Under the pieces are notes generated by a model. The model saw only the letters and a program-made list of their open reading frames with translations, searched no databases and was not told the origin of the DNA. From the NCBI RefSeq assembly GCF_022601895.1, contig NZ_JAKVIO010000035.1, positions 1-46,378 on the forward strand: 46,378 nt of DNA. The letters run 5' to 3'. The DNA comes from Sphingomonas sp. LaA6.9 (lineage in GTDB: Bacteria > Pseudomonadota > Alphaproteobacteria > Sphingomonadales > Sphingomonadaceae). The translations under genes and the position numbers were made by a program. Positions 30,486 to 46,378 of the stretch are shown here, one piece after another; within the stretch, counting starts at the first letter, position 1; each line of letters opens with the position of its first letter.

Positions 30486-31763
30486 TTATATCGCTTCGCG
30501 TTCGACCTCGCGCCAGCCGATGTCGCGGCGGCAGAAGCCGGTGGGAAAGCCGATCGCGTCGACCGCGGCATAGGCGGAGGCTTGCGCGCGGGTGACGTTC
30601 GGTCCGCTCGCGGTAACGTTGAGCACGCGCCCGCCATTGGCGACGAGCGCGCTGTCCTTGAGCACTGTACCCGCGTGGAAGACCTTTGCGCCCGTCGCCT
30701 CCGCCGCCTCGATGCCTGTAATCGCTCCGCCCTTTTCGGGGGTGCCGGGGTAACCCCGCGCCGCCATGACGACGGTGAGCGCGACCTCGGGCTTCATCGC
30801 GGGCGGCTCCATCCCGGCAAGCCGCCCCTCGGCGGTTGCGAGCAGCAGGTCGAGCAGATCGTCGGCGAGTCGCATCATCAGCACCTGGCATTCGGGGTCG
30901 CCGAAGCGGACATTATATTCGATCAGCTTCGGTCCCTCGTCGGTCAGCATCAGTCCGGCGAAGAATACGCCCGAATAAGGCATCCCCGCCTCGGCCATCG
31001 CGCGTGCGGTCGGAGCGACGATCTCATCCATGACGCGCCGCTCAAGCTCGGGGGTGAGCACGCGCGCGGGGCTATAGGCGCCCATGCCGCCGGTATTGGG
31101 GCCGGTATCGCCCTCGCCGACGCGCTTGTGATCCTGCGCCGAGCCGAAGGGCAGCACGGTGGTGCCGTCGCACAGCGCGAAAAAGCTCGCTTCCTCGCCC
31201 GTCATGAACTCCTCGATCACGACCTCTGCGCCCGCCACGCCGAAGCTGCCTGAGAACATCTCCTCGACCGCGGCCTCGGCGGCCTCGCGCGTCTCGGCGA
31301 TGATCACGCCCTTGCCCGCCGCGAGTCCGTCCGCCTTCACCACGACGGGGAAGCCGAAATCGTCGAGTGCTGCGAGCGCGCCGTCCTTGCTTGTCGCGCG
31401 GACATAGGCGGCGGTGGGGATATTGGCGCGCGCGCACAGGTCCTTGGTGAAACCCTTGGAACCCTCGAGCTGCGCGGCGGCCTTGTTCGGCCCGAAAACC
31501 GCGATGCCCATCGTCCTGAGATTGTCGGCAAGGCCGTCGACCAGCGGCGCCTCGGGTCCGACAACGACGAGTGCGATCGAATTGCGGATACAGAAATCGA
31601 TCACCGCGCGGTGATCGACGGGATCGATCTCGACCAGCTCGGCATGCGCGGCTATGCCCGGATTTCCGGGGGCTGCGAACAGCCTGGTCAGCCTCGGCGA
31701 TTGCGCCAGCTTCCAGGCGAGCGCATGTTCGCGGCCCCCCGAGCCCAAAAGCAGGACATTCAT
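30486..31763 (-). CDS. purD: Phosphoribosylamine-glycine ligase
   Basis: A 425-residue ATP-grasp enzyme of purine synthesis joining glycine to phosphoribosylamine. [19 protein letters not shown] opens the protein; [18 protein letters not shown] and [15 protein letters not shown] are the ATP-binding and metal-binding parts, with [20 protein letters not shown] diagnostic of PurD. The ATG at 31763 overlaps the xseA ATG on the other strand within the palindrome CATG. GAAGGGA about eight bases upstream acts as ribosome-binding site and lies inside xseA codons. Confidence 0.97.
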
Positions 31764-33138
31764 GAGCGATCCCTTCGACAACGAGAATTCCGGGCGGCTG
31801 TTAGCCGAGGAGCGCGGCGGGGACAACGCGCCTGCACAGTCGGTGAGCGAATTGTCAGCAGCACTGAAGCGGATGGTCGAGGGCAATTTCAGCCATGTCC
31901 GGCTGCGCGGCGAGATTTCGGGACTGAAGCGTGCGGCGTCGGGCCATGTCTATCTGGCGCTCAAGGACGAGAATGCGGTCATAGATGCGGTGATCTGGAA
32001 GGGCGCGGCTAGCCAGATCGCCTTTCGCCCCGAGGACGGGATCGAGGTGATCGCGACGGGGCGGCTCACCACCTATCCCGGGCGCTCCAAATATCAGATC
32101 GTCATCGAGCGCCTCGAGCTGGCGGGCGAGGGCGCGCTGATGATGCTGCTCGAGCGCCTCAAGGCCAAGCTCGGCGCCGAAGGGCTGTTCGATCCCGCGC
32201 GCAAGGTGCCGCTGCCCTTCCTGCCGCGTGTGATCGGCGTGGTGACATCGCCCACCGGCGCGGTGATCCGCGACATCCTGCACCGCCTCGCCGACCGCTG
32301 CCCGACGCGCGTCATCGTCTGGCCCGTGCTTGTGCAGGGAGAGGGGGCGGCGGCGCAGGTGGCGGCCGCGGTCAACGGCTTCGATTCGATGCCCGCCGAT
32401 GGTCCCGTGCCGCGTCCCGATCTCGTCATCGTCGCGCGCGGCGGCGGCTCGATCGAGGACCTCTGGGCCTTCAACGAGGAGGTCGTCGTGCGCGCGGTCG
32501 CCAATTGCACGATCCCGATCATCTCGGCGGTGGGGCACGAGACCGATACGACCTTGTGCGACTATGCCGCGGACGTCCGCGCGCCGACCCCCACCGCGGC
32601 TGCCGAGATCGCGGTGCCCGTGCGCGCGGATCTCATCGCGCATCTGGGGCAGCAGCGGCTGCGCATGGCGCGCGCGGCCAATCGCTATCACGAACGCGGC
32701 GCCGAACGGCTTCAGGCGCTGGCGCGGCTCCTCCCCAAGCCGCAACAGCTGCTCGATCCCCAGCGCCAGCGCACCGACGATCTCGGCGAAAGGCTCAGGC
32801 GGGGGCTTGCGCACCGCTTGTCGGACGCGCGCGGCGAGCTGGCGCGTGCGAGCGGCGCGCTGCGTCCAGCGCTGCTCACCCAGCGCATCGCGCGCGATCG
32901 CGACCGTTTCGAGCGGCTCTGGCGCCTGATGGAGTCATTGAGCCCCAATCGCGTGCTCGACCGCGGCTATGCCTGGATCGAGAAACGCGGTGGCGGCGTG
33001 GTCACCAGCGCGGCCGGTGCGCGCGCGGCGGGCGCGCTCACGCTGCATTTCGGTGACGGCGCGGTCGACGCCCGGGTTGAGCGACCCGGCGGCAAGGCGT
33101 ATGATCCTGCCAAGCCAGAACAGCCTGAGCTCTTCTAG
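31762..33138 (+). CDS. xseA: Exodeoxyribonuclease VII large subunit
   Basis: A 458-residue nuclease. The N-terminal OB-fold has [20 protein letters not shown] and [20 protein letters not shown]. The catalytic domain has [16 protein letters not shown] (225-240) and [20 protein letters not shown]. The tail is a long coiled coil. With XseB it degrades single-stranded DNA; xseB is not in the window. The frame is open upstream over the antisense purD gene; ATG 31762 with AGGA seven to eight bases before it gives the family start. Confidence 0.97.
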
Positions 33139-33170
33139 CACAGGCCAATGAACAGGAGCGTAAAGACCCG

Positions 33171-33371
33171 ATGTTGATGTCGCATTCCGGACGGCCGGCG
33201 AAACTCCATTACATGGCGAACGGCTTCCGTGTGCTTGCATCGGGCGACCATGTGGTGTGCGCGATGACGGGCGAGAAGATACCGCTCGATCATCTGCGCT
33301 ACTGGAGCGTGGCGCGGCAGGAACCCTATGCCAGCGCCGAAATATCGGTGCGCGCCGAGCTTGATCGGTGA
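33171..33371 (+). CDS. DUF2093 family small protein
   Basis: A 66-residue soluble protein. GRPAKLHYMANGFRVLASGDHVVCAM and IPLDHLRYWSVARQEPYAS are typical of DUF2093, a small family of Alphaproteobacteria with unknown function. AGGAG lies about 12 bases before the ATG (9-10 before the alternative start at the third codon). It follows xseA by 32 bases and overlaps the M23 gene by GTGA, suggesting one transcript. Confidence 0.85.
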   Translation: MLMSHSGRPAKLHYMANGFRVLASGDHVVCAMTGEKIPLDHLRYWSVARQEPYASAEISVRAELDR

Positions 33372-34252
33372 GGCGCGCGACAGGCGTTGCGATCGCCCTC
33401 TCGCTCGCCGCCTGCACATCTGCGCCGGGGCCGGCGCCTTCGGTCATCAGCGCGCCCGTCCCGACCGCACCCCGCCCACCGGTTCGTCCGGACGTCGAGA
33501 TTGCCGGTCCCTTCAACCAGGGTGGCATCGCGCTCGGACGCGCTCCCTCGGATGCAGTGGCGCTGACCTTGGATGGCAAGCCGGTCGACGTCGCCTCCGA
33601 TGGCCGTTTCCTGATCGGCTTCGGGCGTGATGCGGCCGCGTCCGCGGAGTTGGTTGTCCGCCGCGCCGACGGTTCGACGGAGACGCGAATCCTGACCATT
33701 GCGCCGCGATCCTGGCGAATCGAGAATCTCGCGTCCCTTCCGCGGGTGCCGAGATCCAGCGCGGAATTCGAGCGGCTGCGTCCGCTCGAGCTCGAAGAGA
33801 TTGCGTCGGCCCGCACCGTCGCGTCCGGAAGCCAGGGCTGGCGGCAGCGCTTCGCATGGCCCGTGATCGGCCGCATATCGGGATTGTTCGGGTCGCAGCG
33901 CATCTATCGTGGCGAACCCGGCGCCTATCACTCGGGGGTCGATGTCGCGCGTCCGACCGGCACGCCCTTTTTCGCGCCCGCGGACGGCGTCGTCATTCTG
34001 GCCACCGACCGTCCGTTCACGCTGGAGGGCTACCTGCTCATGATCGATCACGGCATGGGGCTCAACAGCGCCTTTCTTCACCTGTCGCGTATCGACGTGA
34101 AGGCGGGTGACGTCGTGACGCAGGGGCAGATGCTCGGCACCATCGGCGCAAGCGGCCGCGCGACGGGGCCGCATCTTCACTGGGGCATGAAATGGCGCGA
34201 CGAACGGCTCGACCCGCTGCTCGTCGCGGGCGCGATGCCGGGCGGCAACTAG
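33368..34252 (+). CDS. M23-family metallopeptidase lipoprotein
   Basis: A 294-residue protein with a GTG start overlapping the DUF2093 stop (GTGA). The signal ends in lipobox SLAAC, giving a lipid-modified Cys16. The C-terminal LytM domain keeps all zinc and catalytic residues: His188-x3-Asp192 (YHSGVDVA), His238 (LHLS) and His269-Leu-His271 (GPHLHWG). It is therefore probably an active peptidoglycan endopeptidase rather than a degenerate activator such as EnvC. The region 42-120 forms an Ig-like beta domain. Its TAG stop shares CTAG with the convergent gene. Confidence 0.93.
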   Translation: MRRATGVAIALSLAACTSAPGPAPSVISAPVPTAPRPPVRPDVEIAGPFNQGGIALGRAPSDAVALTLDGKPVDVASDGRFLIGFGRDAAASAELVVRRADGSTETRILTIAPRSWRIENLASLPRVPRSSAEFERLRPLELEEIASARTVASGSQGWRQRFAWPVIGRISGLFGSQRIYRGEPGAYHSGVDVARPTGTPFFAPADGVVILATDRPFTLEGYLLMIDHGMGLNSAFLHLSRIDVKAGDVVTQGQMLGTIGASGRATGPHLHWGMKWRDERLDPLLVAGAMPGGN

Positions 34253-34788
34253 TTTTCGCGCCTGACCCTGACCGACGGCTGTCCGTTGAATGAGGCAAAA
34301 TACGAACCCAGCGAGGCGCGTCGGATTCTGACCTTTGTCCCGGGCTTGGGGCCCACGGCCACGGGCTTCTGGTCGATCTGCGACCAGCTTGCGCCGTCTT
34401 CCAGCGTGAACCGCCATCCGCCGTCGGCGGTGCGCCCCGTTCCGCGGACCACGGCCTCGATTTCCTTGATCTCCTCCTTTTCTTCGGCGTCTTCGCTGTC
34501 CCCGAAGATCTTGAGCGAGGGGAGGGTGAAGCCGAAAAGGCCGCGGCGGGCTTCGCGCACCTGCTCCTTGTCGACGATCACGACGTCGCGCTGCTTCTCG
34601 GCGCTTTCGAGCGCGCTGACCTGTGCATCGTAGCATGCGAGGCGCTGGGCGGCGTCGCTGACCGCCTTGCAGTCGAGCAGATTCTGGAAAGCTGCGGAGC
34701 GGGGCTTCTCCTCGTTTGCCTCCCTGGCCAATCCGGGTGCGGCGGCGACGAGTGTAGAAATAGCAATCAGAAGGGCGGCGCGCTTCAT
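34249..34788 (-). CDS. Exported conserved hypothetical protein with Cys pair
   Basis: A 179-residue protein with a signal peptide (MKRAALLIAISTLVAAAPGLA). The mature N-terminus has LLDCKAVSDAAQRLACYDAQ with Cys40 and Cys52, a motif found in several small sphingomonad periplasmic proteins, probably forming a disulfide. An acidic stretch (EDAEEKEEIKEIE) separates it from a C-terminal beta-rich part (WRFTLEDGASWSQID, KVRIRRASLGSYF) resembling a small OB- or SH3-like domain. The function is unknown. GGGAGA eight bases upstream of the ATG supports the start. Confidence 0.8.
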   Translation of the reverse strand: MKRAALLIAISTLVAAAPGLAREANEEKPRSAAFQNLLDCKAVSDAAQRLACYDAQVSALESAEKQRDVVIVDKEQVREARRGLFGFTLPSLKIFGDSEDAEEKEEIKEIEAVVRGTGRTADGGWRFTLEDGASWSQIDQKPVAVGPKPGTKVRIRRASLGSYFASFNGQPSVRVRREN

Positions 34789-35076: not shown

Positions 35077-38000
35077 GTGAGCAAATCTCTCAAATATACG
35101 AGCCTGCGCGGGGGCGTTGCGTCCTTTGCACTTGGCTTGGCCATGATCTCGGCGCCTGCCTTTGCGCAGGACGAGCCCCAGGCCGCCGAAGCGGCCGAAG
35201 GCGAAGCCATCATCGTCACCGGCTCGCGCATTCCGCAGCCCAACCTCGAATCGGCTGCGCCGGTTACCGTCGTTGGCGCCGAGGACATCAAGCTGCAGGG
35301 CACCACCAAGATGGAGGACCTGCTCAACTCGCTGCCCGGCGTGTCTGCAAGCCAGGCCTCGACGCTCTCCAACGGCGCTGACGGTACGGCATCGGTCGAC
35401 CTTCGTGGCCTCGGCACGAGCCGCACGCTGACCCTCGTCAACGGCCGTCGCCTGCTGCCGGGCGATCCGAGCCCGACCAGCGGTTCGGCTGCCGACATCA
35501 ACATCATACCCGCTTCGATCGTGAAGCGCGTCGAGGTCCTGACGGGCGGTGCGTCGTCGACCTATGGTGCGGACGCGGTCGCGGGCGTCGTGAACTTCAT
35601 CATGGATACCGATTTCGAGGGTATCAAGTTCGACGGCCAGTACAGCTTCTCCCAGCACAACAACCGCAACGAGTTCATGCCGCCGCTGCTCGATGCGCGC
35701 GCGGCTCAGGGTCTTGCCGGCTATGGCTATCCCAAGGGCAGCGTCGTCGACGGCGGGACCATCGACGCCACGGTCTCGATCGGCACCAAGTTTGACGATG
35801 GCCGCGGCCATGCAGTCGTCTATGCCGGCTACCGCAAGGCCAAGCCGGTCCTGCAGTCGCGCCGCGATTTCAGCGCCTGCACCCTGCAGAACACTGGCGC
35901 TGGCGTACCACGCTGCGGCGGTTCGGCGACCTCGGACAACGGAAACGTGATCGTGTTCGACGATTTCGGCGGTGCTCGTGCGACGTCGACGATCTACACC
36001 TTCGCGCCCGGTGGCGGTTTCAACAACTCGACCACGCTCTACAACTTCGCACCGACCAACTATTTCCAGCGGCCGGACGAACGCTACACTGCGGGCCTGT
36101 TCGCGAACTACGAGATCAACGACTCGATCAAGCCGTATCTCGAGTTCATGTTCATGGACGACCGCACGGTTGCCCAGATCGCGCCTTCGGGTGACTTCGG
36201 CAATACGCTGACGATCAACTGCGACAATCCGCTCATGTCGGCGGCTCAGCGCGCCGTAGTCTGCGACAACGAGAACCTGATCAACGGCTTCCTGGGCGTC
36301 TTCCCGCTGGCGCAGGGCGCTCCCTACAACCCCAATCCGGGGGCGGCGCCGATCGACTTCACCGATCCGACGACCGGAGCGACCTATAACAGGGCGTTCT
36401 TCCAGTTGCTCCGCCGCAACGTCGAAGGTGGTCCTCGCCGGTCCGACCTGCACCACACCAATTTCCGTACGGTCATTGGTTCGAAGGGCGATCTGGATAA
36501 TGTCTGGTCGTACGACGCTTATTACCAGTATGGCCGGTCGAACTACACGCAGGTCTATTCGAACGAGTTCTCGGTAGCGCGTCTTACCCGCGCGCTCGAT
36601 GTCGTGACTGGTCCCAACGGCACCCCGGTGTGCCGCTCGGTCGTCGACGGCACCGATCCGAACTGCGTGCCCTATAACGTCTTCGGCGGCGCGGGCTCCG
36701 TGAGCCCCGCAGCGGTTGCCTATCTGTCGGCGACCGGCTTCCAGAAGGGCCAGACCTCGGAGCAGGTCGCGAGCGCCTCGTTCACCGGTCTTCTTGGTGA
36801 ATATGGCTTCCAGACCCCCTGGGCCGAAGACGGCGTTGGCATCAACGTCGGTGTGGAATGGCGCAAGGAGTCGCTGGAACTGAACACCGACAACGCCTTC
36901 CAGACGGGTGATCTCACCGGTCAGGGCGGCGCGACGCTGCCGCTTTCGGGCAACTTCCGCGTCTATGACCTGTTCGGCGAAGTCCAGATCCCGATCGTGC
37001 AGGACAGCTTCATCCACGATTTTTCGATCAACGCGGGTTATCGCAAGTCGTGGTACGAGACGAGCGCCGATCGCAAGTATGACACCGACACCTACAAGGT
37101 CGGCGTCGAACTCGCGCCGATCCCGGATATTCGCCTGCGCGGTGCATATAACCGGGCCGTCCGTGCTCCGAACATCCAGGAACTGTTCGCCACCAACACC
37201 GTCGCTTTGAACGGCAGCGTGGATCCCTGCGCCGGCATCACGATCACCGCAACGGATTATGGCTGTCTTGCTCAGGGTCTTCTGGTCGGCCAGCGGACTG
37301 CCGCGAACCCGGCGGGCCAGTATAACGGCTTGATCGGCGGCAACCCCGATCTGCAGCCCGAAAAGGCGACGACAAAGACCTTCGGTGTGGTCCTTCAGCC
37401 CGGCTTCCTGCCGCGCTTCGCGCTGACCATCGATTATTTCGATATCAAGGTCGACAACGCGATCCGTGCTTTCGGTCAGGATGCAGTGCTGGGTGACTGC
37501 GTCGCCAACTCGACCGCAACGGCGGCGGCCGCATCTTGCGACCTCGTCAATCGTGACGCGGCCGGCTCGCTGTGGCTGACCCCGGGCGGTTTCGTTACCG
37601 ACCTTCCGAACAACGTCGGCAAGCTTCGGACCAAGGGTATCGAGGTCAACGGTTCGTACTCGCACAGCCTCGACTTCGGCACGATCTCGGCCAGCTTCAT
37701 CGGGACCTATCTCGACAAGTACAAGATCGACAACGGTCTGACCGAGCCCTTCGACTGCGCGGGTCTCTATGGTCCGACCTGCACCATCGGCGGCACCACC
37801 AACGCCGGTGCGCCGCTGCCCGAATGGCGGCACAAGGCGCGCGTGACGCTGAACACCGAAATGGGTCTCGGCTTCTCGGTGCAGTGGCGCTATGTCGGCG
37901 AGGTCACGGCCGAAACGCTGGAAGACAATGAGTCGATCGGCGCTCCTGTCAGCTCGCAATTCGATCCGGGTCTGAAGCTCAAGGCGCAGAACTATATCGA

Positions 38001-38214
38001 CATTGCGACCACCTTTGCCTTTGCCGAGAACTACCAGTTCCGTCTGGGCGTGAACAACGTGTTCGACAAGCAGCCTCCGCTGGTTACGTCGGGCAACGCC
38101 GGCCGTGCGGGTTCGAACCTGTGCCCGACTGGTCCGTGCAACGGCAACACCTATCCGGCCACCTATGATGCTCTGGGTCGCTACGTCTATGCAGGCGTGA
38201 CGCTCGAGTTCTAA
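35077..38214 (+). CDS. TonB-dependent receptor
   Basis: A 1045-residue outer-membrane receptor starting with GTG; GGGACTGGAAA just upstream serves as ribosome-binding site. The signal peptide ends AFA before QDEPQ (about 30). EAIIVTGSRIPQPN (about 43-56) is the TonB-box region. The plug has VDLRGLGTSRTLTLVNGRR and TGGASSTYGADAVAGVVNF. The barrel ends in AGVTLEF, with a terminal Phe as needed for barrel assembly. This type differs from the receptor at 2701 and is closer to the one at 43847. It has a strong terminator of its own but is followed in the same direction by three modification-type enzymes. The ligand is unknown. Confidence 0.94.
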   Translation: MSKSLKYTSLRGGVASFALGLAMISAPAFAQDEPQAAEAAEGEAIIVTGSRIPQPNLESAAPVTVVGAEDIKLQGTTKMEDLLNSLPGVSASQASTLSNGADGTASVDLRGLGTSRTLTLVNGRRLLPGDPSPTSGSAADINIIPASIVKRVEVLTGGASSTYGADAVAGVVNFIMDTDFEGIKFDGQYSFSQHNNRNEFMPPLLDARAAQGLAGYGYPKGSVVDGGTIDATVSIGTKFDDGRGHAVVYAGYRKAKPVLQSRRDFSACTLQNTGAGVPRCGGSATSDNGNVIVFDDFGGARATSTIYTFAPGGGFNNSTTLYNFAPTNYFQRPDERYTAGLFANYEINDSIKPYLEFMFMDDRTVAQIAPSGDFGNTLTINCDNPLMSAAQRAVVCDNENLINGFLGVFPLAQGAPYNPNPGAAPIDFTDPTTGATYNRAFFQLLRRNVEGGPRRSDLHHTNFRTVIGSKGDLDNVWSYDAYYQYGRSNYTQVYSNEFSVARLTRALDVVTGPNGTPVCRSVVDGTDPNCVPYNVFGGAGSVSPAAVAYLSATGFQKGQTSEQVASASFTGLLGEYGFQTPWAEDGVGINVGVEWRKESLELNTDNAFQTGDLTGQGGATLPLSGNFRVYDLFGEVQIPIVQDSFIHDFSINAGYRKSWYETSADRKYDTDTYKVGVELAPIPDIRLRGAYNRAVRAPNIQELFATNTVALNGSVDPCAGITITATDYGCLAQGLLVGQRTAANPAGQYNGLIGGNPDLQPEKATTKTFGVVLQPGFLPRFALTIDYFDIKVDNAIRAFGQDAVLGDCVANSTATAAAASCDLVNRDAAGSLWLTPGGFVTDLPNNVGKLRTKGIEVNGSYSHSLDFGTISASFIGTYLDKYKIDNGLTEPFDCAGLYGPTCTIGGTTNAGAPLPEWRHKARVTLNTEMGLGFSVQWRYVGEVTAETLEDNESIGAPVSSQFDPGLKLKAQNYIDIATTFAFAENYQFRLGVNNVFDKQPPLVTSGNAGRAGSNLCPTGPCNGNTYPATYDALGRYVYAGVTLEF

Positions 38215-38239
38215 GGTTCAGTCCGGTTAACACTGTCGG

Positions 38240-38276
38240 GGGGCGGTCGATCCTGGGATCGGCCGCCCCTCCTTTT
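38240..38276 (+). terminator. Rho-independent terminator of the TonB receptor
   Basis: Arms 38240-38252 and 38257-38269 pair over 13 bp (one G-T wobble) around a 4-base loop, followed by TCCTTTTAT. It lies 25 bases after the receptor stop, so most receptor transcripts should end here and the sulfotransferase group needs its own promoter or read-through. Confidence 0.85.
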
Positions 38277-38345
38277 ATGGTCTGCCGACAATCTTGACAT
38301 GCATTTGGATTGCATTGGCGCGGCGGAACGGGGCAAACAATCACG

Positions 38346-40361
38346 ATGGCAACTGCACCAATGCTCGATCCGATTACTGCCGATGTGTTGAGAGAGGCTG
38401 TGGGCGCCGCCCAGACCGGTGACCTTCAGCGCGCCCGACAACTGGCGGAGAATGCGCTGCTACGTGGCGGCGATGTCGTTGCACTCAATGCCTTTCTTGG
38501 AATGCTGCGTGCGCGTGCGGGAGATGCAGCAGGCGCAATCCGCCATCTCAAGGCGGCCCATGGTGGCCGGCCTGGCGACGTCACGATCGCATGCAATCTG
38601 ATCGCTGCCCTGATCGAATCGGGCGATCTGGCCGGCGCGCTCGAGGTCGCCACCAGCAAGCTCGCATTCTCCGACGCGTCGCTGCGCGTTGCCCGCTATC
38701 GCGGCTTTGTCGCGCAATCGCTCGACCGGTTCGCGGATGCGGCAGAGGCCTATGACTATGTCGTCGCGCGTGCTCCTGGTGATTTCGAGAGCTGGAACAA
38801 CCTCGGAAATGCACGTTCCGCGCTCGGCGATTTCACTGGCAGCGTCGATGCTCTGGAGCGCGCGGTAGCGCTTGATCCTCTCGCGTCACCGACACGATTG
38901 AACCTCGCCAATGCGCTTCGCGCGGCCGATCGTGATGAAGAAGCTGAACAGACTTTGCGCGCTGCCGCGGCGGATTTCCCTGATGACGCCCGCGCGCTCA
39001 ACGAACTTTACGTGCTTTTCAAACGCCAGGCGCGACAGGAGGAGGCTCTGCCGGCGCTGGAGGAGGCCGTCCGTCGCGATCCGAAGGATCCGGACCTTCA
39101 GGTCAAGCTCGGCATCGAATATGGGCTGGTCAATCGCATTGCCGAGGCGGAACGCGCGTTTCGTGAGGCGATTGCGCTCAACCCGGTCATTTCGGACGCG
39201 TATCTCGGGCTTGTCATCCAGTATGAGCACACAAATCGCGAAAACGAATTTGCTCCGCTGATCGCACTCGCCGAAGCCAATGGCGTTGACCCCGGTACGC
39301 TCGGCTTTCTCCGTGCCATGGAGAATCGCCGACAGGGCGAGTTCGAAAGTGCCCTGGAAAATCTGTCGCATGTGCCGCCAGCCACCGAGCCCGAGCGCAC
39401 GGCGCATATTCGCGCAACCGTGCTCGACCGTCTGGGCCGGACCGACGAAGCCTTTGCGGCATTCGAGGAGACCGCACGGCTGCATCAGGCACATCCCACC
39501 CAGCCCCTCAGACGCGGTGCCGAGATGCGTGACGAGATCCGCAAGGAAGCAGAACTTCTCACGCCCGATTGGATCGCCGGCTGGCGCCCGGCGCAGGCAG
39601 CAGCTGACGGCTTTGCGGATCCGGTGTTTCTCGTCGGCTTTCCGCGGTCGGGCACGACATTGCTCGACACGATCCTGATGGGGCATCCCGGAACCACGGT
39701 TCTGGAGGAGCAACCTCCGCTTAACCTCGTCGACACCGCGATCGGCGGATTTGAAAAGCTCGCCGCACTCGATGATGCGGGAATCGCAAAGGCGCGGGCG
39801 CACTATTTCGAGGAGGTGCGCAAGATCGAGCCTTATGACGGTTCGACGCTCCTCGTCGACAAATCTCCGCTGTTTCTGCACAAGGTGCCGCTGATCCAGC
39901 GGCTCTTTCCGAACGCGCGCTTCATCCTCGCGCTGCGGCATCCCTGCGATGTGTTGCTGAGCTGCTACATGAGCAATTTCCGCCTCAACGCGGCGATGGC
40001 CAACTTCCTCCGGCTTGAGGATGCTGCCGAATTCTATGATCTGACCTTCCGCTACTGGGAACGCTCGGGCCAATTCTTCCCGGTCAACGTGCACACGATC
40101 GTCTATGAAAAGCTGATCGAGAACGTTGAGGGGCAGGTCCGTCCGTTGCTCGAATTCCTCGGCCTCGAGTGGCACGAGGGCGCGCTCGATCATCAGCGTA
40201 CCGCCAAGTCGCGCGGGCTGATCACGACGGCCAGCTATTCGCAGGTCACCGAACCGATCTACAAGCGCGCGGCCGGCCGCTGGGAACGCTATCGCACGCA
40301 TCTGGAACCGATCCTGCCGACTCTTGAACCCTGGGTCGAAAAGTTCGGCTATTCGCTTTGA
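38346..40361 (+). CDS. TPR-containing sulfotransferase
   Basis: A 671-residue cytosolic protein. Residues about 10-400 are tetratricopeptide repeats (for example NNLGNARSALGDFTGSVDAL followed by ERAVALDP). Residues about 425-671 form a PAPS-dependent sulfotransferase: FLVGFPRSGTTLLDTIL holds the 5'-phosphosulfate loop, and ALRHPCDVLLSC (Arg531 region) the 3'-phosphate site. There is no signal peptide, so sulfation must take place in the cytosol. The repeats probably dock a protein or peptide substrate. The ATG at 38346 was chosen over an upstream TTG; ATG 38361 is also possible. Its stop overlaps the TTG start of the next gene (TTGA). Confidence 0.92.
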   Translation: MATAPMLDPITADVLREAVGAAQTGDLQRARQLAENALLRGGDVVALNAFLGMLRARAGDAAGAIRHLKAAHGGRPGDVTIACNLIAALIESGDLAGALEVATSKLAFSDASLRVARYRGFVAQSLDRFADAAEAYDYVVARAPGDFESWNNLGNARSALGDFTGSVDALERAVALDPLASPTRLNLANALRAADRDEEAEQTLRAAAADFPDDARALNELYVLFKRQARQEEALPALEEAVRRDPKDPDLQVKLGIEYGLVNRIAEAERAFREAIALNPVISDAYLGLVIQYEHTNRENEFAPLIALAEANGVDPGTLGFLRAMENRRQGEFESALENLSHVPPATEPERTAHIRATVLDRLGRTDEAFAAFEETARLHQAHPTQPLRRGAEMRDEIRKEAELLTPDWIAGWRPAQAAADGFADPVFLVGFPRSGTTLLDTILMGHPGTTVLEEQPPLNLVDTAIGGFEKLAALDDAGIAKARAHYFEEVRKIEPYDGSTLLVDKSPLFLHKVPLIQRLFPNARFILALRHPCDVLLSCYMSNFRLNAAMANFLRLEDAAEFYDLTFRYWERSGQFFPVNVHTIVYEKLIENVEGQVRPLLEFLGLEWHEGALDHQRTAKSRGLITTASYSQVTEPIYKRAAGRWERYRTHLEPILPTLEPWVEKFGYSL

Positions 40362-41518
40362 ACGCTGAGCTGCCCGCGCTGCTCGCCGAGGCCGATCGCG
40401 CCTCGATGGCGCAGGACTTCGCGCGCGCACAGGCCTTGCTGCGAGAGGCGGCCGATGCGCGTCCCGATGATGCGTCGATCTTCCTGAAGCTGGCGGGCGT
40501 CAGCCGCGCTGCGGGCCAGCCGCGTGTCGCGCTCGAGGCTATTCATCGCGCGCTCGCGATTGCGCCGCTCGATTTCACCGCCTTGCTCATGAAGGCAAGC
40601 CTGCTGGATCGGGTCGGAGATCCGATGGCGGGCGAGGCATGGGGGCACGCGCTCGCGCAGAAACCCGACGGCGATCTGCCGCCCCAGATTGCCGCTGTGC
40701 TTGCGCAAGGGCAGCAGCGTTACGACGCGTGGCGTGATGCGCGCGAAGGCCAGCTCAAGTCGGCGATGGTCGAGATCGAGGCGCGCGCCGGGGATGAGGA
40801 ACGTGGCCGTATCGATCGCTTTTGCAGCAATGTGGTGCGGCGGACGCGCCATTTTCACAGCGAACCAACGCATTTCCATTTCCCGGGATTGAGCGAACGC
40901 GAATTCCACCCGCGCCGGCTCTTTCCCTGGCTGGAGGAGATCGAGGCCGCGACCGACGTGATCGGCGCTGAGCTCGAAGCCGTCATGGCTGCCGAGCGCG
41001 CCGAACTCGTCCCCTATATCCAGTACGAAGCGCATCAGCCGCTCCGCCAATGGAAGCCGCTCAATCACAATCCTGACTGGACCGCGATCCATCTTTGGAA
41101 AAACGGGCGGCAGGTCGAGGCCAATGCGCGCCATTGTCCGCGCACGCTGGCGCTGCTCGATCGCTTCGATCAGCCTGCGATCCCGGGGGCATCGCCCAAT
41201 GCGATGTTCTCGCTGCTTGCGCCCAACACGACGATCCCCCCGCATGTAGGCGTCAGCAACGCGCGGCTCGTCTGTCATCTGCCGCTTGTCGTGCCGCAGG
41301 GATGCTGGTTCCGCGTCGGTGCGGAAACGCGATACTGGCAGCGCGGGGAGGCCTTCGTATTCGACGACACGATCGAACATGAAGCGATGAACCCGAGCGA
41401 TCAGTTGCGGATCGTCTTCATATTCGATCTGTGGCACCCCGATCTCAGCGCCGTCGAGCGCGAGGCGGTGGCGACGCTGATCACGGCAGCCGGGGGCGCC
41501 CCGGCCGCCGGGCTGTGA
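40358..41518 (+). CDS. TPR-aspartyl/asparaginyl beta-hydroxylase family oxygenase
   Basis: A 386-residue protein. Residues about 1-110 form TPR-like helices; the C-terminal half is an AspH-type double-stranded beta-helix. The iron ligands are His296 in PPHVGVSNARLVCHL and His341 in FVFDDTIEHEAMN. The residue two after the first His is Gly, as in AspH, which lacks the usual carboxylate ligand. Arg351 (LRIVF) would hold 2-oxoglutarate. Known relatives hydroxylate Asp or Asn in proteins, or lipid A. It has no signal peptide or membrane segment. The start is a TTG overlapping the sulfotransferase stop, and the stop overlaps the next start by GTGA. Confidence 0.9.
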   Translation: MNAELPALLAEADRASMAQDFARAQALLREAADARPDDASIFLKLAGVSRAAGQPRVALEAIHRALAIAPLDFTALLMKASLLDRVGDPMAGEAWGHALAQKPDGDLPPQIAAVLAQGQQRYDAWRDAREGQLKSAMVEIEARAGDEERGRIDRFCSNVVRRTRHFHSEPTHFHFPGLSEREFHPRRLFPWLEEIEAATDVIGAELEAVMAAERAELVPYIQYEAHQPLRQWKPLNHNPDWTAIHLWKNGRQVEANARHCPRTLALLDRFDQPAIPGASPNAMFSLLAPNTTIPPHVGVSNARLVCHLPLVVPQGCWFRVGAETRYWQRGEAFVFDDTIEHEAMNPSDQLRIVFIFDLWHPDLSAVEREAVATLITAAGGAPAAGL

Positions 41519-43026
41519 GCATCGAAGCCGCGCTGACCGCCGCGCGCGCCGGGCGCGCCGATGTCGACGGCCTTGATGAGCTTGCGCGGCTGGCGCTTGC
41601 CGAAGGGGAAGAAGAGCGCGCGTTGCCGCTGGTGCGCGCAGCGGCGCAGCGGCACTCGAGTGCGCGGCTGTGGCAATGGAGCGGGTTGCTTGAGCGCGCG
41701 CTCGACGAGCATGAGGCGGCACTCGAATCCTTCATGCACGCGGCGCGGCTTGCGCCTTCGGATGCGGGCATCGCGCACGGGCACGCCCAGGTTGCGCTGG
41801 AAGCGGGCCTTGATGCGGTGGCGCTATTCGAGCATGCGAACCGTCTTGGACCTCCAAAGGGCGACATACTCGTCGGTCTCGCCGCGGCGCGCATGGCCGC
41901 GGGAAGGGGCGAGGAGGCAGCGGCCGAGCTCGATGCGATCCTGGCGCAGGCGCCGCTCTGGCTTCAGGGGCATCAGCAGCTGGCGCAGCTCCGCGCAACA
42001 ATGGGACGTCCCGATCTTGCGAGCGCCTCGCTCGAACGCGCAATGGCGGCAGCGCCCGGGGAAGCGGCGCTATGGCAGGGCCTGTTCGATCTCGATCTTC
42101 GACGCGAGGACTTTGCGCGATTGCGCGACGACGTGGAGCGCGCCCGCGTCGCGGGACTGGCTCACATTCACCACGCCGAGTTCGAAGCGATCGCGGCGGC
42201 CGAATTGGGGGAAACCGGGCGCGCCGACGCATTGTTCGATGCCGCGCCCTCTGACCGGCAGCCGGCGCTTGCGCTGTGGAGGATCCGGCATCTTCTGCGC
42301 AGCGGACGCGCCGACAGTGCAGTGATGCTCATCGACCGCGAGCTTCGCTCCGAGCGTTCGGCGATGGTCTGGCCCTATGCCGCCGCGGCATGGCGCCAGA
42401 CCGGGGACGCGCGCAGTCAGTGGCTCGAGCAGGACGCGCATTACGTAAAAGTGATGGACCTCGGCGATGCGTTGCCGGGGCTCGATGCGCTGGCCGCGCG
42501 GCTGCGTGCACTGCATGTTGCCAAGGGCGAGTATCTCGACCAGTCGGTTCGTGGCGGCACCCAGACCGATGGCCCGTTGTTGAGCCGCATAGAACCTGAA
42601 ATTCGGACGGCGCGCGCCGCGATCGTCGGCGCGATCGAGCGCTATGCGGGCGAGCTTCCTCCACCGGATGACGCGCATCCGCTGCTGCGCCAACGTCGCG
42701 ACCGGCGCATCCGCTTTGCGGGGAGCTGGTCCGTCCGCCTGCGCGGCGCGGGGCATCATGCCAATCACGTCCATCCCCAGGGGTGGATCAGCTCGGCGCT
42801 GTATGTGGCGTTGCCCGGGAGGCAGTCGCACGAGGACGCGCATGCGGGCTGGCTCGCGCTCGGCGTACCGCAGGCCGAACTCGGCCTTGATCTGGCGCCG
42901 GTGCGCATGGTCGAGCCCCGCCCTGGACGGCTGGTGCTGTTCCCGTCATGGATGTGGCACGGCACCCGGCCCTTTGCCGCGGGCGAACGGCTGACCATAG
43001 CCTTCGATGTAGCCCCGCCAAGATAG
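41515..43026 (+). CDS. TPR-containing 2-oxoglutarate/Fe(II) oxygenase
   Basis: A 503-residue cytosolic protein. Residues about 15-340 are TPR-like helical repeats (ALDEHEAALESFMHAARLAP is a clear one). Residues about 395-500 match the putative 2OG-Fe(II) oxygenase family: HANHVHPQGWISSALYVALP (His418, His420) and GRLVLFPSWMWHGTRPF (His482), with Arg492 (ERLTIAF) for 2-oxoglutarate. I see HVH where many dioxygenases have HxD, which is usual for this subfamily as far as I recall. The GTG start overlaps the upstream stop. Three consecutive TPR enzymes suggest a shared peptide or protein substrate. Confidence 0.9.
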   Translation: MSIEAALTAARAGRADVDGLDELARLALAEGEEERALPLVRAAAQRHSSARLWQWSGLLERALDEHEAALESFMHAARLAPSDAGIAHGHAQVALEAGLDAVALFEHANRLGPPKGDILVGLAAARMAAGRGEEAAAELDAILAQAPLWLQGHQQLAQLRATMGRPDLASASLERAMAAAPGEAALWQGLFDLDLRREDFARLRDDVERARVAGLAHIHHAEFEAIAAAELGETGRADALFDAAPSDRQPALALWRIRHLLRSGRADSAVMLIDRELRSERSAMVWPYAAAAWRQTGDARSQWLEQDAHYVKVMDLGDALPGLDALAARLRALHVAKGEYLDQSVRGGTQTDGPLLSRIEPEIRTARAAIVGAIERYAGELPPPDDAHPLLRQRRDRRIRFAGSWSVRLRGAGHHANHVHPQGWISSALYVALPGRQSHEDAHAGWLALGVPQAELGLDLAPVRMVEPRPGRLVLFPSWMWHGTRPFAAGERLTIAFDVAPPR

Positions 43027-43115
43027 GCAAGCTGCTGTCGCCGGTCGAAAAACCTTGGAACCGGCGTTCGAATGCTGCAGTCTCGCGGACAGGGTTTGTA
43101 CCGAGAGGAGTAATG

Positions 43116-43385
43116 ATGCGCCCGATTGCACGTTTGACCGCATTGGGGGCCCTGATCGCCTGTGCGCTGACGGTCCCGGCGGCCGCTGAAGAAGCGTCGT
43201 CAAAGGCCAAAAAGCAGGCCGATCCGGACGAAGTCGTCTGCGAGAAGCAGGAAGTGCTGGGAAGTCGACTGGCGGTTAAGAAGGTCTGCAAGACGCGCGC
43301 CCAATGGGCGGAGCAACGGCGGGCCGACCGCGACGCTGTCGACAAATCCCAGCTCAACTCCTGCATGCGACAGGCGGGCTGCTGA
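43116..43385 (+). CDS. Small exported four-cysteine protein
   Basis: An 89-residue protein with signal peptide MRPIARLTALGALIACALTV and cleavage near PAAA (24). The mature chain has Cys42, Cys58, Cys83 and Cys89 and the pattern VCEKQEVLGSRLAVKKVC followed by a charged helix (WAEQRRADRDAVDKSQ). The VCxxxxVxGSRLxxxxVC pattern occurs in small periplasmic proteins of sphingomonads; no function is known. GAGAGGAG ends five bases before the ATG at 43116 (two bases before the ATG at 43113). It lies 89 bases after the oxygenase gene, so it may be the fourth gene of that unit and is one candidate substrate. Confidence 0.75.
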   Translation: MRPIARLTALGALIACALTVPAAAEEASSKAKKQADPDEVVCEKQEVLGSRLAVKKVCKTRAQWAEQRRADRDAVDKSQLNSCMRQAGC

Positions 43386-43453
43386 GGTCGCGGACCTCGC
43401 CATTGTAATCTGAAGGAGGCGCAGCGCGTCCGGTCACAGGGGGGCCGGCGCTG
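43384..43453 (+). terminator. Two hairpins after the four-cysteine gene
   Basis: GAGGTC-GCG-GACCTC (43384-43398) overlaps the stop codon. A larger imperfect hairpin pairs CAGCG and CCGG (43422-43433) with CCGG and CGCTG (43445-43453) and is followed by TTTGCG. Together they may end the transcript, but neither has a proper U-tract. Confidence 0.4.
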
Positions 43454-43846
43454 TTTGCGCTTGTGCGGCTAAGGAGCCGTTCTGTCCCGAAACGCGCGTG
43501 ACGCCAAAGCCGATGGTCTTGCCCCTGTTCTGATCAATCATCGCTGCGTCTCGCCACCGATGCATCGGGCCATCGTCCTGCTGGCGCAGGGATTAAATAG
43601 TTTTATAGCAAACATATTAATCTGCGGTTCATCCGGACCGGAACGCGTCTCGATCTGACTGTTGCAAATATGTGACGGTCGGAGATTCGTATGATTCTGC
43701 ACGCAAAGCTCAAATTTACAACCATGTGCAACTGAGCCATGTGATCGCCGCGGCGTGGGAAAGCCAGAATTTCCTGAGGCCGGCGACCAGAGGTCCGGAA
43801 CGATCTTCGTTCCAAATTAGTGTTGTACAAAAGGATATCGACCCAA
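43386..43846. promoter_or_regulatory. Long leader/promoter region of the third TonB receptor
   Basis: A 461-bp non-coding stretch. Its middle (about 43593-43625, around TTAAATAGTTTTATAGC) is AT-rich compared with the rest of the window and is the likeliest promoter site. TATGAT at 43690-43695 is another -10-like element, without a -35 at proper spacing. If transcription starts in the AT-rich part, the receptor has a leader of over 200 bases, long enough for an RNA-level control element. No known riboswitch was recognised and no small gene is supported. Confidence 0.45.
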
Positions 43847-46378
43847 ATGAACATGTGTTTGTTGCGTCTCCGGACGGGTGCCGCGCATTTGGCACTCGGC
43901 CTGGCCGTCGTGTCTCTGCCGGCCCATGCACAGGAAGCTCCCGAAGCCACCAACGAGGACGATGCCATTGTCGTCACCGGCTCGCGCATTGCGCAGCCCG
44001 GCGTCGAATCGAACATCCCTGTCGTCGCGGTCTCTGCCATCGACCTGCAACGCGAGGGTGTCGTCAACATCCAGGACTCGCTTCAGGAACTGCCCCAGAT
44101 GGGCGTCGGCAACAGCCGCACCAACACCAACTTCCTGACCTCGGGCAACGGCGTCGCCACGCTCAACCTGCGCAATCTCGAGGACAAACGCACGCTCGTA
44201 CTCGTCAATGGCCGTCGTTTCGTCTCGGGTCTCGCGGGCAGCTCGACCGTCGACATCAACAACATTCCGACCGATTTCATCGAGCGTTACGAAGTGATCA
44301 CCGGCGGCGCCTCGGCCGTCTATGGCTCCGAGGCGATCGCGGGCGTCGTCAACTTCATCCTCAAGGACGAGTTCGAAGGCATCTCCGCGCGCGCGCAGTA
44401 CAACATCACCGAGAAGGGCGATAACCCGCGCTATTTCGCAAGCATCACCGCCGGCACCAGGTTCGGCGCGGATGATCGCGGCTCATTCATGGGCAATTTC
44501 TCGTACGACAAGGATACCGGCCTGTTGTCGCGCAAGCGCCGCATCTCGGCCGAGGACTGCTATTTCGACATCTGCGGACCCGGCGGGTACAGCTCCTATT
44601 CGCCGCAGGGCCGCTTCCAGCTGTTCAACGCGGCGGGCGCCCCACAGAATGCCTATCTCGGCGGCAGCCTGTTCTCGTTCGACGACAACAACAACGTCAT
44701 CGCCGGGGGTGGCGCAGGCTTCAACCGCAACTCGGTGCGTCGGATCTCGACCCCGGTCGAGCGTTACCTCGCCAGCGGTATCTTCAAATATGACCTGACC
44801 GACGACATCCAGGCATTTGCCGAGATCACCTATTCGAAGGTGAAGTCGAATTCGGATATCGAGGCGCTCGCGCTCGCCGACACCGACATCTACGCTCCGG
44901 GTTTCGGCATCGGTATCGACAACCCCTTCATCCCGGCAGATGTGCGGGCTGCGATCGCCGCGCGCAACAGCGACGGCGACGCCAGCAACGACGTTTCCTA
45001 CCTCGGCTTCCGTCGCCGTCAGAACGAGGTCTTCGACCGTTCGAACAACAACACGCGTGACACGTGGCGCGTCGCCACGGGCTTTCGCGGTTCGTTCGCC
45101 GAGAACTGGAACTTCGACGCGAGCTATGTCTATGGCCGTCTGAAGGACAACACGACCAGCCAGGACATCGACAATGCGCGTTATCGCAACGCGCTCGACG
45201 CGGTCCAGCTCGCCGATGGCTCGATCGTCTGCCGCAGCGCGACCGCACGGGCGGAGGGTTGCGTTCCGATCAACATCTTCGGTTTCAACACCGCCAGCCC
45301 GGCAGCATCCGCATATGTCCAGGCGGTCGTCCCCAAGTCCGAGAAGATCACCAACGAGCAGCATGTGCTGGCTGCCAACATCACGAACAGCCAGCTCTTC
45401 TCGCTTCCCGCGGGTGATGTCGGCGTCTCGTTCGGTACCGAGTACCGCAAGGAGAAGAGCGTCGACGATCTCGACATCCTGACCAACACCGGCGGCAATT
45501 CGGGCAACATGATCCCCGACACCGTCGGCCAGTTCGACGTCTGGGAAGCCTATGGCGAGGTCAAGGTGCCGCTGCTCGCCGACACAGCCTTCTTCAACTA
45601 TCTCGGCGTGACGGGCGCGGCCCGCTATTCCGATTATAGCCAGGGCAATGTGGGTGGCGTGTTCTCGTGGAACGCTGGCGCAGAATGGTCACCGGTGGAT
45701 GGCGTCCGTTTCCGCGGCGCCTATGCACAGGCAAACCGTGCGCCCAACATCTCCGAATTCGCCTCGGCACCCGCGGAGACCTTCGAGGGCGTGACCGATC
45801 CCTGCAACAACGTAACCGCGACCAGCAACCGCGCCCAGGACAACGCCTGCCGCGCCATCCCCGCGATTGCGGCCGCTATCGCTGCCAATGGCACCTTCGC
45901 CTACACCCCGGCGGATCTGCAGGGCATCAACGGCTTCGTCGGTGGCAACCCCGATCTGAAGGAAGAGACCGCCAACACGATCACGATTGGCGGCGTCTTC
46001 ACGCCCAGCTTCGCGCCCGGTGTCGCCCTGACCGTCGACTATTACGACATCAAGGTGAAGGACGCGATCGCGCAGGTCGGCCGTGACCTTTCGATCGAGC
46101 AGTGCCTGCTCACGGGCCTCGCGGACTTCTGCGACAACGTGACGCGCAATGCCGCGACGGGTTTCGTCACGCGCGTCGACGATCAGCTGATCAACATCGG
46201 CAAGATCCGCACCAAGGGCATCGACGTTGGCCTTCGCTACGGCCGCGCCCTCAACTGGTTCGGCGATGACCGCATCGACCTGACCGCCAACTACACCTAC
46301 CTCATCGACTTCAAGCAGCAGGCCAACCCCTCGGCTCCGGTCGAGGAGTTCGCAGGCGAAGTCGGTTATGCGAAGCAC
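43847..46378 (+). CDS. TonB-dependent receptor (3' end cut by window)
   Basis: The first 844 codons of a receptor open to the window end. The signal peptide ends LPAHAQ (about 28). AIVVTGSRIAQPG is the TonB-box region. The plug has LNLRNLEDKRTLVLVNGRR, VDINNIPTDFIERYEVITGG and SAVYGSEAIAGVVNF, close in wording to the receptor at 35077. The barrel follows (RFRGAYAQANRAPNISEFAS). About 100-150 residues are probably missing. AAGGAT lies about 12 bases before the ATG; an ATG two codons later would leave the signal peptide intact. Paralogous receptors on both sides of the modification genes suggest a functional link. The ligand is unknown. Confidence 0.92.
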   Translation, partial: MNMCLLRLRTGAAHLALGLAVVSLPAHAQEAPEATNEDDAIVVTGSRIAQPGVESNIPVVAVSAIDLQREGVVNIQDSLQELPQMGVGNSRTNTNFLTSGNGVATLNLRNLEDKRTLVLVNGRRFVSGLAGSSTVDINNIPTDFIERYEVITGGASAVYGSEAIAGVVNFILKDEFEGISARAQYNITEKGDNPRYFASITAGTRFGADDRGSFMGNFSYDKDTGLLSRKRRISAEDCYFDICGPGGYSSYSPQGRFQLFNAAGAPQNAYLGGSLFSFDDNNNVIAGGGAGFNRNSVRRISTPVERYLASGIFKYDLTDDIQAFAEITYSKVKSNSDIEALALADTDIYAPGFGIGIDNPFIPADVRAAIAARNSDGDASNDVSYLGFRRRQNEVFDRSNNNTRDTWRVATGFRGSFAENWNFDASYVYGRLKDNTTSQDIDNARYRNALDAVQLADGSIVCRSATARAEGCVPINIFGFNTASPAASAYVQAVVPKSEKITNEQHVLAANITNSQLFSLPAGDVGVSFGTEYRKEKSVDDLDILTNTGGNSGNMIPDTVGQFDVWEAYGEVKVPLLADTAFFNYLGVTGAARYSDYSQGNVGGVFSWNAGAEWSPVDGVRFRGAYAQANRAPNISEFASAPAETFEGVTDPCNNVTATSNRAQDNACRAIPAIAAAIAANGTFAYTPADLQGINGFVGGNPDLKEETANTITIGGVFTPSFAPGVALTVDYYDIKVKDAIAQVGRDLSIEQCLLTGLADFCDNVTRNAATGFVTRVDDQLINIGKIRTKGIDVGLRYGRALNWFGDDRIDLTANYTYLIDFKQQANPSAPVEEFAGEVGYAKH

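Follow-up and report, generated by a model that had tools for sequence, protein, structure and literature searches.

Between two TonB-dependent receptor genes of the alphaproteobacterium Sphingomonas sp. LaA6.9 lie genes for a sulfotransferase, an aspartyl/asparaginyl beta-hydroxylase-like protein (AspH) and a putative 2-oxoglutarate (2OG)-Fe(II) oxygenase, enzymes whose relatives are linked to receptor genes beyond chance, at one conserved chromosomal site and again beside unrelated receptors. From sequence comparisons, and with a little less than even confidence, we read these TPR-fused proteins as receptor-tailoring enzymes, which would modify the receptor precursor in the cytosol before export; the linkage suggests that such receptors may arrive at the cell surface already chemically modified. 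The window analyzed is the whole of contig NZ_JAKVIO010000035.1 (46,378 nucleotides; C56 in our numbering of the 4.39-Mb draft genome). The gene order TBDR1 > TPR-sulfotransferase > AspH > TPR-2OG > SMALL > TBDR2 was confirmed at positions 35077-46378:

35077..38214, + strand, TBDR1, TonB-dependent receptor of 1,045 amino acids (PF00593 and PF07715; start from the gene caller; tree and synteny)
38346..40361, + strand, TPR-sulfotransferase, Sulfotransfer_3 and tyrosylprotein-sulfotransferase-like (Pfam; PDB sequence match to TPST1/2)
40358..41518, + strand, AspH, aspartyl/asparaginyl beta-hydroxylase-like, with a weak TPR-like N-terminal region and a TTG start (PF05118; human AspH match)
41515..43026, + strand, TPR-2OG, putative 2OG-Fe(II) oxygenase (PF13759), with a GTG start (Pfam; 21-row alignment)
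43113..43385, + strand, SMALL, small putatively secreted protein with a signal-like stretch, a linker, a hairpin with two invariant Cys residues, and a helix (homologous ORFs; model)
43847..46378, + strand, TBDR2, second receptor, cut by the contig end (Pfam; variable neighbor)

The sulfotransferase and AspH genes share a TTGA stop/start overlap (40358-40361) and the AspH and 2OG genes a GTGA overlap (41515-41518), bearing out the gene order, NTGA coupling and motifs claimed in an earlier reading of this DNA (the original prediction). A crude hydropathy scan (no dedicated signal-peptide predictor) found a signal-like hydrophobic stretch in TBDR1, TBDR2 and SMALL and none at the N termini of the sulfotransferase, AspH and 2OG enzyme, in agreement with the earlier claim that no enzyme carries an export signal. 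Rfam and tRNA scans of the window returned no matches.

Linkage of the enzymes to receptor genes

Named genomes were scanned with a TPR-2OG alignment, and the best 80 of 586 relatives were taken. Where at least 5 kb was available on each side (62 of these loci), a receptor gene always lies within 5 kb, and the 18 loci with shorter flanks divide equally (9 with, 9 without); 14 of the 71 receptor-positive loci are of the halogenase type described below. A second survey covered 119 sampled genomes of the family, with receptors found in six-frame open reading frames (ORFs) and only stronger matches counted, at thresholds of 290 bits for 2OG (64 places), 140 bits for sulfotransferase (25 places) and 188 bits for AspH (55 places); of the many weaker sulfotransferase matches (25 to 37% identity), just four were included, fetched by hand. 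A receptor lies within 5 kb of the 2OG gene at 43 places and in the window (none at 7; none, with short flanks, at 3; 10 not fetched) and within 5 kb of the sulfotransferase gene at 16 places and in the window, with one more at 6.7 kb beside a short flank (7 not fetched). The 2OG and sulfotransferase genes are therefore not found mostly without receptors, a pattern that the original prediction had named as contrary evidence; AspH is less closely tied, with a receptor within 5 kb at 27 of the 44 fetched places against 15 without and 2 without on short flanks (11 not fetched). By a hand estimate, about 19% of genes in a 4.39-Mb genome with some 61 receptors, as here, fall within 5 kb of one. The linkage exceeds this background; no P value is given because the loci share ancestry and are not independent.

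The stronger argument is recurrence at unrelated sites with other receptors. At 18 loci (in Novosphingobium, others and two gammaproteobacterial bins), TPR-2OG accompanies a distant receptor and a tryptophan halogenase (detected with our own hidden Markov models), and a GH32-like gene is near 12 of them (Pfam domains checked on proteins of L200, L204 and L206). The second TPR-sulfotransferase of the LaA6.9 genome (contig C67; 31% identical to the window copy) is encoded about 140 bp upstream of another receptor gene, followed by an amino-acid permease gene, and three further sulfotransferase paralogues, picked by hand, adjoin a receptor, with BCCT, MFS or Met-gamma-lyase-type genes nearby. Because the neighboring ligand genes change from locus to locus (GH32, amino-acid permease, BCCT, MFS) while the receptor stays as the constant partner, the receptor would be the most economical common substrate.

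The halogenase-type clusters run receptor > tryptophan halogenase > TPR-2OG > GH32, for example at L200:5785-12659, L204 and L206; at L206:4258-4989, a DUF6445 protein (PF20043) adjoins TPR-2OG. The only halogenase match in the LaA6.9 genome lies on contig C35, where a receptor match ends about 2 kb upstream (whole region, C35:74172-79260), and none lies in the window locus.

Modular enzyme sets at the purD-clpB site

Neighborhoods were fetched around AspH matches in the 119 family genomes and around the upstream gene c31; some of the loci duplicate one another (e.g., L036 and L134). TBDR1 occupies one chromosomal site, purD-xseA-(small ORF)-peptidase-c31-TBDR1-[enzymes]-clpB (clpB named from its Pfam domains), complete or partial examples of which were found in Sphingomonas, Sphingopyxis, Novosphingobium, Stakelama, Parasphingopyxis and others. 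In erythrobacteria, TBDR1 and the enzymes are often retained at loci that show neither purD nor xseA within view. The upstream anchors in the window, which are not thought to be part of the receptor-enzyme system, are as follows:

30486..34788, mixed strands, purD (-), xseA (+), a small ORF, a peptidoglycan-metallopeptidase-like protein (+) and c31 of 179 amino acids (-)

Of these, purD and xseA exceed their NCBIfam cut-offs, the peptidase matches only below cut-off, and c31, a conserved protein, has no Pfam family above cut-off.

What stands between TBDR1 and clpB varies. Within 9 kb of 92 TBDR1-clade receptors, the detected sets were sulfotransferase, AspH and 2OG (25 receptors); sulfotransferase and 2OG (17); sulfotransferase, AspH and SULX, a protein described below (7); AspH and SULX (7); other mixes (24); and none (12). 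The last figure is an upper bound because the gene caller missed or shortened some 2OG, sulfotransferase, SULX and SMALL genes (e.g., at L037, L085, L090, L240, L155 and L214): L085, one of the 12, certainly has 2OG and sulfotransferase genes, and L187 and L177 encode a 2OG relative. On a receptor tree (169 receptors, from 182 before those with identical last 300 residues were removed), the enzyme sets track receptor clades. Gene order varies too, with sulfotransferase > AspH > 2OG, AspH > 2OG > sulfotransferase and 2OG > sulfotransferase all occurring.

The original prediction, which had called for a check of gene-order conservation in sphingomonad genomes, is thus upheld in part: the receptor-enzyme locus is syntenic, its receptor linkage is conserved and the enzymes begin, by the crude scan, without export-signal-like stretches, but the enzyme set and order are modular. 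Because both vary, the ordered modification of one shared substrate that it proposed is not supported, and a fixed ordered pathway was rejected, the few loci with no detected enzyme also counting against it.

The sets have further members, among them an oxygenase of the 2OG-FeII_Oxy_4 type and, in one locus, a TauD-type dioxygenase. SULX (about 340 amino acids, without a Pfam model) is encoded near 22 of the 92 receptors (e.g., at L045:8140-9141, L050, L160 and L169). By sequence, it matched nothing in the PDB at an E value of 1 or below, and one divergent member matches PF13469 below cut-off. Its predicted structure (mean predicted local distance difference test score, 87.4) is suggestive of a sulfotransferase fold, with TPST2 as the best Foldseek match (E = 5.8e-6) at modest template modeling scores of only 0.44 and 0.48. 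At L055:9326-12165, genes that read from their Pfam matches as cysD and a cysN/APS-kinase fusion stand directly beside TBDR1, with AspH and SULX near; their products would make the sulfate donor. A variant set at L101:8350-11704 (also at, e.g., L084, L087 and L099) comprises a 2OG-FeII_Oxy_4 oxygenase, TPR-2OG and a 303-amino-acid protein, presumably a methyltransferase, beside a receptor outside the TBDR1 clade.

TBDR1 and TBDR2 both have plug and barrel domains above Pfam cut-offs, the TBDR2 barrel being incomplete at the contig end. The original prediction took them for a related pair flanking the enzymes. Their 32% identity is unremarkable in a genome with some 61 receptors, and two similar plugs say little because TBDR2 falls outside the TBDR1 clade; TBDR2 was accordingly rejected as a matched partner and is treated as a variable neighbor.

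Catalytic domains and the proposed receptor modification

The TPR-sulfotransferase, searched as the ORF at 38310-40361, contains a Sulfotransfer_3 domain (PF13469; 117.4 bits against a cut-off of 27; E = 1.4e-33) and many TPR matches above cut-off. Apart from TPR matches, the best PDB relatives of this domain are human tyrosylprotein sulfotransferases (TPST) 1 and 2 (best E = 1.4e-12), to which the motif GFPRSGTT, which we take to be the P-loop donor-binding motif, aligns (9wp1/5wrj; E = 1.4e-12 to 1.8e-12). In AspH, the Asp_Arg_Hydrox domain (PF05118; 152.6 bits against 22.6; E = 1e-44) is closest in the PDB to human aspartyl/asparaginyl beta-hydroxylase (E = 6.7e-29); both His residues assumed to bind the metal are aligned, and H296 and H341 are invariant across 25 alignment rows. 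TPR-2OG has a 2OG-FeII_Oxy_5 domain (PF13759; 77.3 bits against 27; E = 1.3e-21) and TPR above cut-off, with H415, H418, H420, H482 and R492 invariant among 21 aligned relatives; the PDB entries closest to this domain are uncharacterized proteins. Two of the three catalytic domains are thus nearest, among solved structures, to protein-modifying enzymes (TPST and human AspH), and the enzymes look able to sulfate and hydroxylate proteins, each chemical step being read from the domain family.

In the mechanism that we propose, the TPR domains would bind the newly made, unfolded receptor precursor in the cytosol, where the AspH-like and PF13759 domains would hydroxylate receptor side chains and the sulfotransferase domain would sulfate one side chain. 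The receptor would then pass through Sec and be assembled into the outer membrane, and the added groups could alter how it binds its ligand, how its loops are structured, or how phages or bacteriocins recognize it. Each receptor clade would carry its own enzyme kit. Besides the linkage, its recurrence and the protein-modifying relatives, the fit of enzyme sets to receptor clades and the putative sulfate-donor genes at L055 speak for this reading. We regard it as a good and testable hypothesis on receptor modification.

Several observations weigh against it. The claim in the original prediction that all three enzymes carry TPR repeats stands for the sulfotransferase and 2OG enzyme, and the label is weaker for AspH because all its TPR matches stay under the curated Pfam cut-offs (best TPR_14, 23.0 bits against 23.5; E = 1.1e-4). 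The top NCBIfam matches of AspH are lipid hydroxylases, OlsC (87.7 bits) and LpxO (51.1 bits). Full flanks without a receptor within 5 kb occur at 15 TPR-AspH and 7 TPR-2OG places, and the clustering may reflect co-regulation only. Among TPR-sulfotransferases from 190 genomes of the class, compared over flanks of at most 1.5 kb, all 8 that are at least 43% identical to the C67 copy (which is one of the 8) lie next to a receptor gene of the same strand, whereas none of the 22 at or below 40% identity has a receptor within 1.5 kb (five with shorter flanks at contig ends); receptor linkage is therefore a property of certain subfamilies and not of TPR-sulfotransferases in general. Finally, contrasting the 92 TBDR1-clade receptors with and without each enzyme located no convincing modified residue. 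No alignment column stood out for AspH; one (T670) did so for sulfotransferase or SULX taken together, three (N400, S499 and Y549) for sulfotransferase, and many, clade-wide, for SULX and 2OG; Tyr at 549 is present in 91% of receptors with the sulfotransferase against 29% without, and is not convincing because TBDR2 also carries Tyr at the aligned place.

Related systems offer partial parallels. By sequence, eukaryotic TPST and AspH are relatives of the window's catalytic domains, and human AspH joins a TPR region to its hydroxylase domain, as the window's AspH may do. These enzymes act in the lumen of the endoplasmic reticulum or Golgi on oxidized, folding proteins, whereas those of the window appear to be cytosolic, and their genes belong to a cluster with receptor genes. 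RaxST is the sulfotransferase for a secreted Xanthomonas peptide, which is sulfated before export; it is not known to have TPR, partner hydroxylases or receptor linkage. In the TonB receptor/tryptophan halogenase clusters, a receptor likewise adjoins a cytosolic tailoring enzyme, and TPR-2OG is common to both cluster types, but the window locus has no halogenase. Associations of receptors with halogenases and with PiuC-type oxygenases have been published. The PKHD hydroxylases of the PiuC/YbiX type are 2OG-Fe(II) oxygenases encoded beside siderophore TonB receptors; they belong to a different oxygenase family and are not known to have TPR or a sulfotransferase. A PKHD hydroxylase is listed in a regulon table of PMC4176598. 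Sphingomonads encode dozens of TonB receptors, and for most of these no ligand is known. Full-text searches of open-licence papers, judged by titles and abstract openings, gave no description of the link between receptors and TPR enzymes, and a sphingomonad receptor review (PMC7142613) and a Xanthomonas receptor paper (PMC1790865) have no word starting with sulfotransferase, hydroxylase, halogenase or oxygenase ("dioxygenase" would escape this search).

If receptor tailoring is correct, sulfation and hydroxylation of receptors would add to bacterial outer-membrane biology a layer that is largely unexplored and that has its counterpart in the eukaryotic secretory pathway. Phage and bacteriocin resistance and ligand choice could be affected, and the enzymes beside receptor genes would have a substrate.

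SMALL and alternative substrates

SMALL is a concrete new protein family without a Pfam model: 72 homologous ORFs were found in 64 loci (some duplicated), with matches in 81 of the 119 family genomes, several in some of them, and among 37 members no Pfam family had more than a single match (best E = 0.0041). Only C42, G49, C58 and W64 are invariant (C-x6-G-x8-C-x5-W in the window copy), so the "four-cysteine protein" of the original prediction has four Cys residues in the window but two across the family. The model places both invariant Cys residues on a hairpin (40-46/54-60) followed by a helix, with high confidence there, and a disulfide between them is probable on this model; a fold search gave no match at an E value of 0.001 or below.

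SMALL, or a similar peptide, could itself be the substrate, modified before export as in a cluster for ribosomally synthesized and post-translationally modified peptides, with TBDR1 importing or sensing the product; we think this unlikely. It is conserved at the TBDR1 locus: an enzyme gene lies no more than 300 bp from 56 of the 72 ORFs, and a receptor no more than 9 kb from 67. At least 58 of 90 TBDR1 loci encode SMALL, a minimum since genes that are small or at an edge can escape detection (L214 does have one), and SULX loci carry a different sequence type of it from 2OG/sulfotransferase loci. Yet SMALL is also present beside TBDR1 at loci without a detected enzyme (L215-L218), was not found in the 18 halogenase-type 2OG loci, and lies outside receptor loci at 12 of 20 extra places (L219-L222 and L224-L231), and the family alignment shows no conserved Tyr. 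PF13471, a family that we take to include lasso B2 proteins, has a single match in the genome, on another contig (C93) and not at this locus. The peptide explanation stays alive because a table in PMC10040529 lists sulfotransferase and AspH types together, as in the window, near lasso-peptide genes: for two erythrobacter genera it places lasso B2, sulfotransferase and AspH genes in neighboring clusters, whose consecutive numbers suggest that they form one. Unlike those clusters, the window locus has no PF13471 gene.

Just as improbable, in our judgment, is that the enzymes act on an imported nutrient or a siderophore- or signal-like small molecule and that adjacency reflects shared regulation. 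Receptor genes commonly sit with catabolic genes, those examined here adjoin GH32 and transporter genes, and one locus has the TauD-type dioxygenase; against this, the same TPR enzyme types accompany receptors whose neighbors point to different nutrients, and TPR domains and relatedness to TPST and AspH fit protein substrates better. Modification of a lipid or envelope glycan (ornithine lipid, lipid A or polysaccharide) is very unlikely: OlsC and LpxO are the best NCBIfam matches of the AspH domain, and, judging from the titles of structure matches, sulfotransferases of the same fold also act on small molecules and glycans, but the scores fall far short of the equivalog cut-offs (450 for OlsC and 500 for LpxO), so AspH was rejected as either lipid hydroxylase, and lipid modification would not explain the receptor linkage. 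Least probable of all is that the three genes merely hitch-hike at a conserved site gathering receptors and mobile enzyme genes, since the linkage is found again elsewhere, beside receptors of other families, even though enzyme content at the purD-clpB site varies greatly and receptors are numerous in this genome.

Receptor tailoring can also be extended to include SMALL. Its hairpin tip, V-L-G-S-R-L (43254-43271; residues 47-52), resembles TBDR1 residues 45-52, IIVTGSRI. Across the family, the tip is mostly V/E-T/I/L-G-S-R/L, and the TBDR1 sequence, which we take to be the TonB box, reads VTGSRI (VTGSLI in the SULX clade); at the position following GS, SMALL and TBDR1 have the same residue in 43 of 55 pairs and different ones in the other 12, with few independent changes. 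The likeness is weak evidence, a lead and not a result. Because of it, SMALL could bind TonB in place of the receptor. A fuller scheme, which we consider doubtful, would combine a modular, receptor-specific code of cytosolic modification by TPR enzymes and halogenases (receptors hydroxylated, sulfated and elsewhere halogenated before export) with SMALL as the dedicated periplasmic partner of TBDR1 at the purD-clpB locus, binding TonB in the receptor's stead and gating transport. Other members of the SMALL family are encoded at L132:11602-11868, L146:13366-13611 and L169:12615-12905, and genome G074 has four matches.

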